The position numbers and the translations under genes were made by a program. 64,000 nucleotides of DNA. It comes from Halorubrum laminariae. Lineage in GTDB: Archaea > Halobacteriota > Halobacteria > Halobacteriales > Haloferacaceae. The notes beneath the pieces were generated by a model. That model had not been told where the DNA came from. It ran no database searches and saw nothing but the letters and a program-made list of their open reading frames with translations. The stretch's first letter is position 1. The number at the start of each line of letters is the position of its first letter. This document shows positions 57,214 through 61,989 of the stretch, in pieces. The stretch covers positions 1 through 64,000 of the forward strand of contig NZ_JANHDL010000012.1 in the NCBI RefSeq assembly GCF_024494655.1. The letters are read 5' to 3'.

Positions 57214-58551
<1,338 letters not shown>

Positions 58552-58715: not shown

Positions 58716-60434
58716 TCACACCGCCTCCGGACCGGTCGCGCCGGTGCGGACCTGCAACGCGTCCTCGACGGGCATGATGAACACCTTTCCGTCGCCGGGC
58801 TCGCCGGTCTTGGCGGCGTCGGCGATGGCGTTTGCGACCTCGTCGGCCGGAATGTCGGCGACGACGATGTCGATTTTTACCTTCTGGTGGAGGTCGACCG
58901 TGAACTCCTCACCGCGCCACTGTCCCTTCTTGGCGGGCTGGCTACCACGGCCGGAGACGTTCGTGACGGTGAGCGATGGCGCGTTGATCTCTGCGAGTGC
59001 CTGCTTGATCGCACCGAGCTTGTCGGGCCGAACGACTGCCGTGACCATCTTTATCTCCGTGCCGGCTTCCTCGCCGCCGTCAGCGCGCGGAGAGTCGTCG
59101 GTCGTGTCGACCACTGCGGGGCCGCCGTCGGTCGCCACGCGGTCGCCGCCGAATTCGGGGTAGGTCTCGACGCCGTGTTCGGAGATGTCGAGGCCCTCCT
59201 GTTCGTGTTCCGGGGTGACGCGTGCCTCGCCGACCAGCTTGAGGACGTACCAGACGACGGCGGTCGCGGTGAGGGTCCACCCGCCGATGATGACGACGCC
59301 GACTAACTGAGCGATGAAGTGGGCCCCGACGCCGCTACTGAGCTGTCCGGGAGCGGCCACGAACGGGAACAGCAGGGTTCCGAGAACGCCGGCGCTGCCG
59401 TGGACCGGGAACACCGCACAGACATCATCGATCTTGAGCGTGTCCGAGACGAAGTCGAAGACGATCGGGAGCTGTGCGCCGGCGAGCCCGCCGACGACGA
59501 GCGCGCCCCACCACGCCGTGGTGTCCGGAATAGCAGTGATCCCGACCAGCCCCGCGAGGAGGCCGTTCGCGACGTAGAGCGTGTCGACCTTGCCGTTCCG
59601 CAGCCACACGACGAGCGCGGCCCCGATCCCACCGGACGCCATCGCGATGGTCGTCCCCATCGCGACGAGGTTGACGGTCATGGTGTTGAACATGCCGCCG
59701 CTAACCACAGAGGCTGTCCCGACGTTGAAGCCGTACCAGCCGAACGCGAGGATGAGCGTCCCGAGGGCGGCGAACGTCAGCGAGTGGCCGGGAATTACGT
59801 TCGTCGAGCCGTCCTCGCTGTAGCGGTCCATCCGCGGGCCGAGCACGGCCGCGGCAGTGAGCCCGGCGATACCGCCCATACCGTGGACGATCATGCCGCC
59901 AGCGAAGTCGTGGAAGGCGGTTCCGGTCAGCTGGGCGACGAGTCCGTCACCGGAGGCCGACCACGTGAACGCGATGACCATCGGGTAGATGACTGCGGCC
60001 AGCAGGAAGGTGTAGGTGACGTACGCGCGCAGCTTCGCGCGACCGGCGACCGCGCCGGAGACGATGGTTGCCGCCGTCATCGCGAAGACAGCGCCGTAGA
60101 GCCAGTTGACGTACGGGCCGACAACGCCCTCCTCGACGGCAAGTTCACCGCCGGAGAACAGCGTCCCAGCCACGGAGACGGGACCGCCGGAGCCGCTCAT
60201 CACGCTGGTGAACGCCGTCCCGATGAGGAAGAACACCGTCACCCCGACGCTCCACGTCAGGAGGTTCTTCGTCAGCTGGTTGGCGACGTTCTTCGAGCGA
60301 ACCTGCCCCGCTTCGAGCATGGCGAAGCCGGCGTGCATGAAGAAGATGAGGAACGTCACGACGAGGATCCACGTCCCGTTCAGTGCGGATGCGAACGTAC
60401 TCGGATCGACGCTCGCGAGAACGCCGGTCGTCAC
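58716..60434 (-). CDS. amt: Ammonium transporter fused to a PII-like domain
   Basis: The 572-residue protein joins an Amt channel (about 1-405) to a GlnK/PII domain (about 461-572) through an acidic linker. The Amt part has the twin histidines H184 (MIVHGMGG) and H345 (VHGSAGVLG) and 11 helices. The PII part has the [17 protein letters not shown] start, the T-loop [28 protein letters not shown] and the C-loop [19 protein letters not shown]. The T-loop Tyr (position 51 of GlnB) is Phe here (F511). Start is GTG with a strong GAGGTGG ribosome site and a leader of about 70 nt. Confidence 0.93.
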
Positions 60435-60957
60435 GAGGCAACCACCTCTACTGACCGTTCGTTCGTTGAGCGACGCGTTTCATTCGTGTTCATGTGCTGA
60501 ATCACATTACAACCCCGGGAAAGGGAATCATATAAATGCTTGAGTTGAAACACCAAATAAATTAGAAGGATAACACTAGATTTGTCCAATATACTATAGA
60601 CTCAATTGTATATAAGGACGTAAGTTGCGGGATTATCTGGTAATTCTTGCGCGATCGGCTGACAGATGTATTGTAAGAAATCCAACTAAAATGCATGACT
60701 TCGCCGATTTGCCGCCTCACGACGACGCGCGCGGCCGCTGTCGGCGAGTATTGCCACATCGATCTATCGCCGAGCGGCACTGCGTGCGTCGGTCTCGTCT
60801 TGTGACGTGCCGAGACGGGCGATACCGACCGTCTCACGAAACAGACATAGAAGTGTACGTTTGTCTACCCTGTGGTCGTCCGATCGGCAGTACGTCCACC
60901 GTCTCTCAAAATGGCGTTTCGTTCGCCGATCTGTGTCTGACTCTCGATGCGACCCAG
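60435..60957. other. amt promoter region and radA 3' flank
   Basis: In this 523-bp gap, the minus strand has a TTTATATGA box at 60528-60536 for amt and a GAGGTGG ribosome site at 60442-60448. The 60540-60700 stretch is AT-rich with several TATA-like strings and no convincing gene. No PII- or nitrogen-regulator motif is recognised. Confidence 0.6.
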
Positions 60958-61989
60958 CTACTCCGGCTTCAGTCCTTCGCCCTGCACGCGCATCACCGCC
61001 TCGCCGTCGGCGAGGTTCGGCGCGTCGACGAGCCGGACGATCCGCTTGTTCCCCTTCGACTTTCGGAGGTAGATCCGGAATGTAGAGGCGTGCCCGAGGA
61101 TGTTTCCGCCGATGGCTTGGGTCGGGTCACCGAAGTAGGAGTCGGGATTCGACGCGACCTGGTTGGTGACGAGGATGGCGGTGTTGTACAGGTCGCCGAG
61201 CCGCATCAGGTCGTGAAGGTGTTTGTTGAGCTTCTGCTGGCGCTCGGCGAGTTCCCCTCGACCGACGTACTCAGCGCGGAAATGGGCGGTAAGAGAGTCG
61301 ACACAGACGATTCGGATCGGCCACTCGCTTTCTTCGTGTTCGCCCGCGAGTTCCTTGGCCTTCTCTGCGAGGAGGATCTGGTGGTTGGAGTTGAACGCCT
61401 TCGCGACGTGGATCTGATCTAAGAACGCCGCGATGAGTTCCTCCATCGCTTCCTCGTCCGCGGGCGTGCCTTCGATCTCGCGTCGCTCCATCTCCTCGGC
61501 GAGAATCTCGTCGTCGAGGCCGCGGACCATGTCGTCGATCCGCTCCGGCCGGAACGTGTCCTCGGAGTCGACGAAGATACAGCCGCCGTCGAGCCCGCCG
61601 TTCTCCGGCGGAAGCTGCACGTTGACCGCCATCTGGTGGGTGACCTGCGACTTCCCGGAGCCGAACTCGCCGTACACCTCGGTGATCGATTGGGTCTCGA
61701 TGCCGCCGCCGAGCAGGTCGTCGACTTCGTCGATCTGCCACGAGAGCTTGCCGATCTCCTGTCGGCGTTCCAACACGCTCGCGCCCGTCTCGAACCCACC
61801 CACGTCGGCGGCGTCGCGGGCGGCGTTGATGATATCGGACGCCGACGACTCGCCGATGTCGGCGGTGTTGGACATCTCGCCGGGGCTCGCGACGGCAATC
61901 GACTGATAGCTCTCGAATCCGTTCTCGACGAGCTTGTCTGCGGTCGCGGGGCCGACGCCGGGGAGGTCTTCGAGTTCGTCTTCAGGCAT
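60958..61989 (-). CDS. radA: DNA repair and recombination protein RadA
   Basis: RadA is the archaeal RecA/Rad51 recombinase that forms filaments on ssDNA. The 343-residue protein has an N-terminal HhH domain ([17 protein letters not shown]), Walker [10 protein letters not shown] (107-115), Walker B-like IRIVCVDSL and the L2 region [25 protein letters not shown] box on the minus strand near 62011-62018 lies about 25 bp upstream. No intein is present. Confidence 0.97.

Follow-up and report, generated by a model that had tools for sequence, protein, structure and literature searches.

How is an ammonium channel controlled when its PII regulator is part of the same polypeptide, and what becomes of the two halves of such a gene in evolution? 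Both questions are raised by an Amt-PII fusion gene in the window (the whole stretch of DNA analysed, 64,000 nucleotides of Halorubrum laminariae). We consider it likely that the PII half is a ligand-controlled, built-in plug and that the channel half has been replaced repeatedly by recombination at the hemL-radA locus.

The fusion gene and its distribution

The reading frame is unbroken on the minus strand from a GTG at 60434 to a stop at 58716, and its 572-residue product consists, in this order, of an Amt channel, a linker and a PII domain. Pfam matches Ammonium_transp (PF00909) to residues 22-425 (E 1.2e-96) and P-II (PF00543) to residues 462-565 (E 1.9e-25). With an uninterrupted frame and both domains, the initial annotation was right to read channel and PII as one protein. 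The features of the locus are as follows.

57214..58551, minus strand: hemL (glutamate-1-semialdehyde aminotransferase-like), the downstream neighbour, in the same position in all loci of the genus
58716..60434, minus strand: Amt-PII fusion gene, GTG start, 572 codons plus stop
58719..59054, minus strand: PII (GlnK) domain, residues 461-572, carboxy end free (PF00543)
58890..58946, minus strand: T-loop, residues 497-515 (E. coli 37-55), by alignment with E. coli GlnK
58902..58904, minus strand: Phe511 (TTC), equivalent of Tyr51 in the same alignment
58914..58916, minus strand: Arg507, equivalent of the channel-plugging Arg47, invariant in the fused and separate haloarchaeal PII proteins examined
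59055..59150, minus strand: linker, residues 429-460
59121..59138, minus strand: VATDGG motif, residues 433-438, approximate place of the 3' crossover, where the exchanged channel half meets the constant PII half
59151..60383, minus strand: Amt channel body, residues 18-428, class A (PF00909 and the class A clade of the tree)
60435..60957, no strand: radA-amt intergenic region, containing the 5' crossover; identity falls here in sister pairs of unlike class
60958..61989, minus strand: radA, the upstream neighbour, in the same position in the loci of the genus except on the L157 contig, which ends before radA

Judged by its sequence, the Amt half has the profile, predicted fold and pore signature of an Amt/Mep/Rh ammonium transporter. 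The PF00909 profile and the helices of a structure prediction agree with this family and its 11-helix fold, and the pore residues (twin histidines H184/H345, Phe gate F117/F231, and D176) are invariant in 98 of 98 fusions. The prediction, of modest confidence (pLDDT 68, below 50 at the tip of the T-loop), was made for a single chain and carries no information on docking. Between the conserved Amt tail YPEFG, which ends at residue 429, and the start of PII at residue 461, the linker measures about 32-36 residues; the earlier figure of about 55 holds only when counting starts at the end of the last predicted Amt helix, near residue 400. The PII half fits the PII (GlnB/GlnK) profile and has the ATP and 2-oxoglutarate residues Q39, K58, K90 and R103 as well as the plug residue Arg47. 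Its closest solved relative is 4ozj (E 1e-52), which we take to be the PII of Haloferax mediterranei.

The genome (3.62 Mb in 42 contigs) contains exactly one P-II and one Ammonium_transp match, both in this gene; the search for a separate glnK proposed by the initial annotation thus finds none elsewhere in the genome. In our collection, with one genome per species, 51 of the 52 Halorubrum genomes have a PII, and in all 51 it is fused, in open frames of 559-620 amino acids. Amt is likewise present in 51 genomes, as a single copy in 50. That two genes were merely joined by a frameshift or sequencing error, the artefact feared at the outset, is excluded by fusion in 51 of 51 independent assemblies, some of them closed.

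One of the 51 PII-bearing genomes also has a separate PII. The MAG A07HR67 (L122, G392:C8:55383-60697) carries a fused copy and, immediately after a partial Amt match, a PII match with Tyr51 in a frame of its own; this second PII was probably acquired. Neither Amt nor PII was matched in genome G307 (92% complete), by loss or through an assembly gap. The record NZ_RDQE01000007.1 (L217), named Halobellus captivus ZY8, has a class B fusion (see below) and its genome, G336, groups in Halorubrum, so that the name looks misassigned.

Beyond the genus, the search for the fusion extended to other haloarchaea. PII occurs in 373 of 391 genomes of the class sample; a hand count among the matches listed gives about 74 genomes with a fused PII and about 62 with separate PII only, which is a rough half among those matches and not a census. 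None of the non-haloarchaeal PII matches listed for the phylum is fused (frames of 109-186 amino acids, one of 343), rare cases being possible. On the PII tree the labels fused and separate change nine times, but supported branches force only one of these changes. Separate amt-glnK pairs are known from Haloferax, Haloarcula and Haloquadratum (PMC3831643), and in a Natrinema study one gene is described as an ammonium transporter "belonging to the P(II) protein family" (PMC9995536). The earlier statement that the two genes are usually separate therefore agrees with the literature on such pairs, but not with the fusion in about half of the listed haloarchaea. Being genus-wide in Halorubrum, found in about half of the listed haloarchaeal genomes and already present in annotation, the Amt-PII fusion as such is ordinary in Halobacteria. 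A literature search found no paper on the function of any fused Amt-PII, nor any experiment on one.

Control of the fused PII

Alignment with E. coli GlnK places Phe511 at Tyr51, as initially noted, and Trp506 at Tyr46, while Arg47 is kept as Arg507. Phe is found at position 511 in all 50 Halorubrum fusions compared (codon TTC in 39 of 39 checked); Tyr stands there in all 48 fusions from other genera and in all 56 separate PII proteins, including the one separate PII of Halorubrum. The change is clean and specific to the genus, and the T-loop is otherwise haloarchaeal: that of 4ozj differs from it mainly by the Tyr.

The target hydroxyl for uridylylation is thus missing in Halorubrum. The GlnD UR/UTase domain, PF08335, was found in 0 of 97 haloarchaea, the genome under study included, with a positive E. 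coli control; of the two marks of a PII uridylylated by GlnD, Tyr51 is replaced and PF08335 is lacking. The Tyr to Phe change is real, but it matters less than was initially supposed since no GlnD-type enzyme was found in the class anyway. GlnK uridylylation has been reported in Hfx. mediterranei, according to a citation in PMC3831643; given that no GlnD domain was found, another uridylylating enzyme may operate there.

The ligand residues (E. coli T29, G37, Q39, K58, G87, G89, K90 and R103) and Arg47 are invariant in the fused copies. The phosphate contact Arg101 of bacterial PII is Gln here, a class-wide feature found in almost all haloarchaeal PII. With ligand contacts kept and no GlnD among the 97 haloarchaea, control by ligand binding, as initially proposed, is the only plausible one. 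The GlnK of a methanogenic archaeon leaves the membrane when Mg-ATP and 2-oxoglutarate move its T-loops away from Amt, and its binding of 2-oxoglutarate requires, or is helped by, a free C-terminus (PMC8395244). PII is the C-terminal part in all fusions. The retained ligand residues, the behaviour of archaeal GlnK and the C-terminal position of PII favour a built-in, ligand-controlled plug, and the lack of GlnD makes a ligand-driven gate the best mechanism. It would work as follows. An Amt trimer would carry three covalently attached PII domains, which would assemble into the usual PII trimer on the cytoplasmic face. At low 2-oxoglutarate and with ADP bound, the T-loops, Arg507 at their tips, would block the channel by entering the pore exits; Mg-ATP and 2-oxoglutarate would withdraw them and open it. 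Given Phe511 and the lack of GlnD, uridylylation would play no part in Halorubrum.

Alternatively, the fused PII could be mainly a tethered sensor for other partners such as glutamine synthetase, or could be set free by proteolysis or internal initiation, and not act as a plug. It is the only PII of the cell, and in Hfx. mediterranei, again according to a citation in PMC3831643, glutamine synthetase is activated by free GlnK. In the window, an internal ATG (Met463) is preceded by a GGAG stretch that could serve release, but this Shine-Dalgarno-like stretch occurs in just 22 of 39 Halorubrum loci, and a conserved internal start giving free PII was rejected for this reason. The strong conservation of the inner face of Amt also speaks against a mere tether, and we judge this alternative quite unlikely.

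Channel classes at the hemL-radA locus

Whereas PII tails throughout Halorubrum match that of the window at 86-98% identity, the channel halves fall into at least four classes. Their Amt identity to the window is 91-95% in class A (17 rows, the window included), about 61-67% in class B (30 rows), 61-62% in class C (two rows) and 78% in A' (one row). Classes A and B are separated by 104 fixed differences in Amt and 0 in PII. The loci examined all lie between the same hemL (86-96% identical) and radA (92-98%), except that the L157 contig stops before radA. The pattern is repeated in genus g60 of family f4, where Amt is 66% and PII 96% identical. Class A itself splits at residues 53-92, with 78-82% versus 95-98% identity to the window, which suggests that shorter stretches of the channel, near the first extracellular loop, have also been exchanged.

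On the Amt tree Halorubrum is found in separate clades, class A beside the channels of Halonotius and Halohasta, class B beside genus g3, and class C within a group that is mostly family f4 (Natrialbaceae). A single Halorubrum Amt clade, when enforced, is rejected (delta lnL about 601, p 0.0002). On the PII tree Halorubrum and g3 form one clade (support 98, starred). With Amt DNA each class forms one clade. A single class A clade is, by contrast, rejected by the flanks (p 5e-51) and by PII DNA (p 0.007), the latter used in place of the PII protein tree, which has too few columns for this test (p 0.30). On the flank tree, made from the DNA of hemL, radA and the ACT-domain neighbour of 38 species, channel class changes 13 times, against a mean of 14.2 with shuffled labels. 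Recombination affects this tree too, so that 13 is a count on the tree and not of events.

Nucleotide identity between sister species of unlike class is 93-99% in the flanks, about 60-75% for the greater part of the channel and 92-97% in linker and PII, while like-class pairs stay near 90-98% throughout the channel. In the unlike pairs the fall begins in the radA-amt intergenic region. At the other edge, the class-specific letters stop at YPEFG(GDR/KAN/KP), after which come VATDGG and the linker common to the genus; this places the 3' crossover approximately, in the linker near VATDGG. What is exchanged, in situ at the hemL-radA locus, is the part of a single reading frame that encodes the channel. 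We infer homologous recombination as the cause, which agrees with the gene exchange known from Halobacteria (PMC4500145, PMC3990103). Recombination between haloarchaea, with crossovers in the intergenic region and the linker, would swap the channel half and leave the PII half native. The conserved pore and cytoplasmic docking face would make the channel halves interchangeable, and the PII could then work with any of several divergent ones. As a separate observation, the radA-amt intergenic region (60435-60957, about 520 bp) varies greatly, also among species of like class.

Divergent channels with similar tails would also result from an ancient duplication, in which the ancestor of Halorubrum had at least two fused paralogues (A, B, C), every species later kept just one, and gene conversion homogenised the PII tails. 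Against this, the same hemL and radA flank all loci, Amt is a single copy in 50 of the 51 genomes that have it, and the bodies of classes A and C cluster with those of other genera and families; we regard the scenario as very improbable. Another scenario has the channel half evolving very fast in place, under diversifying selection and without recombination. It draws on the finding that A/B differences lie mostly on the outer face (89 of 207 positions in the outer half versus 19 of 210 in the inner half; Fisher p 7e-16), the sides being assigned from predicted helices and the standard N-out/C-in topology. Rate alone, however, cannot put a Halorubrum channel with Halonotius or Natrialbaceae. 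The classes are starred clades that span genera and they interleave on the flank tree as often as shuffled labels do, which renders the scenario scarcely credible.

The outer-face bias is also present in other genera and, on the predicted sides, is therefore best read as constraint on the side that faces PII; diversifying selection is not implied. As to why the preferred exchange of channel halves should recur, we tentatively consider balancing selection on the outer face, for instance on a virus attachment site or on ammonium affinity niches, though on the whole it seems rather unlikely. The linker would then be a recombination joint at which the exposed channel is swapped and the native, cell-specific regulator kept. 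If true, this would be modular evolution of a regulated channel via sub-gene homeoalleles.

Relation to known systems

The sole Amt of genome G065, presumably Halorubrum lacusprofundi, is a class B fusion. The ammonium transporter Hlac_2623 of H. lacusprofundi is up in biofilms in ammonium-free medium (values 3.3 and 8.3), and glutamine synthetase rose alongside it (PMC5118699).

The genus offers a natural series of channel/regulator chimaeras, the same PII sitting on at least four divergent Amt bodies. This makes testable which Amt residues PII docking needs, and whether ligands suffice to work a fully covalent gate that has no uridylylation. The locus further shows that haloarchaeal gene exchange can act on half a gene, with a domain linker as the joint, so that trees built from whole genes of this kind are misleading.

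By sequence, the closest solved relatives of the Amt half are the PDB entries 6eu6, 8qj3 and 8qpf ("Ammonium transporter"; chains of 644-661 residues in 8qj3 and 8qpf), which we take to derive from Amt-sensor fusions. Unlike in Amt-kinase and Amt-cyclase fusions, the partner domain here is PII, a known channel plug. The AmtB-GlnK complex of E. coli and Hfx. mediterranei is built from the same two families, with a conserved pore, the ligand residues and Arg47, and its 3:3 stoichiometry is available to the fusion; AmtB1 and GlnK of Hfx. mediterranei co-immunoprecipitate (PMC3831643). In contrast to that complex, the fusion is a single polypeptide, has Phe for Tyr51, and occurs with neither GlnD nor a soluble PII.

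Haloarchaeal homeoalleles, or homeocassettes, are divergent isofunctional variants swapped at one locus (PMC11078007), as with the forms of leucyl-tRNA synthetase (PMC3436685). The channel halves resemble them: divergent variants occupy one locus between conserved flanks, their phylogeny conflicts with that of the neighbours, and the conserved pore suggests that they share one function. Unlike in known homeoalleles, the unit is half a gene, the seam lies in-frame at a domain linker and the pattern is genus-wide. The homeoallele pattern and this kind of fusion were known; what is new is the sub-gene exchange, a "homeoallele" of half a gene.
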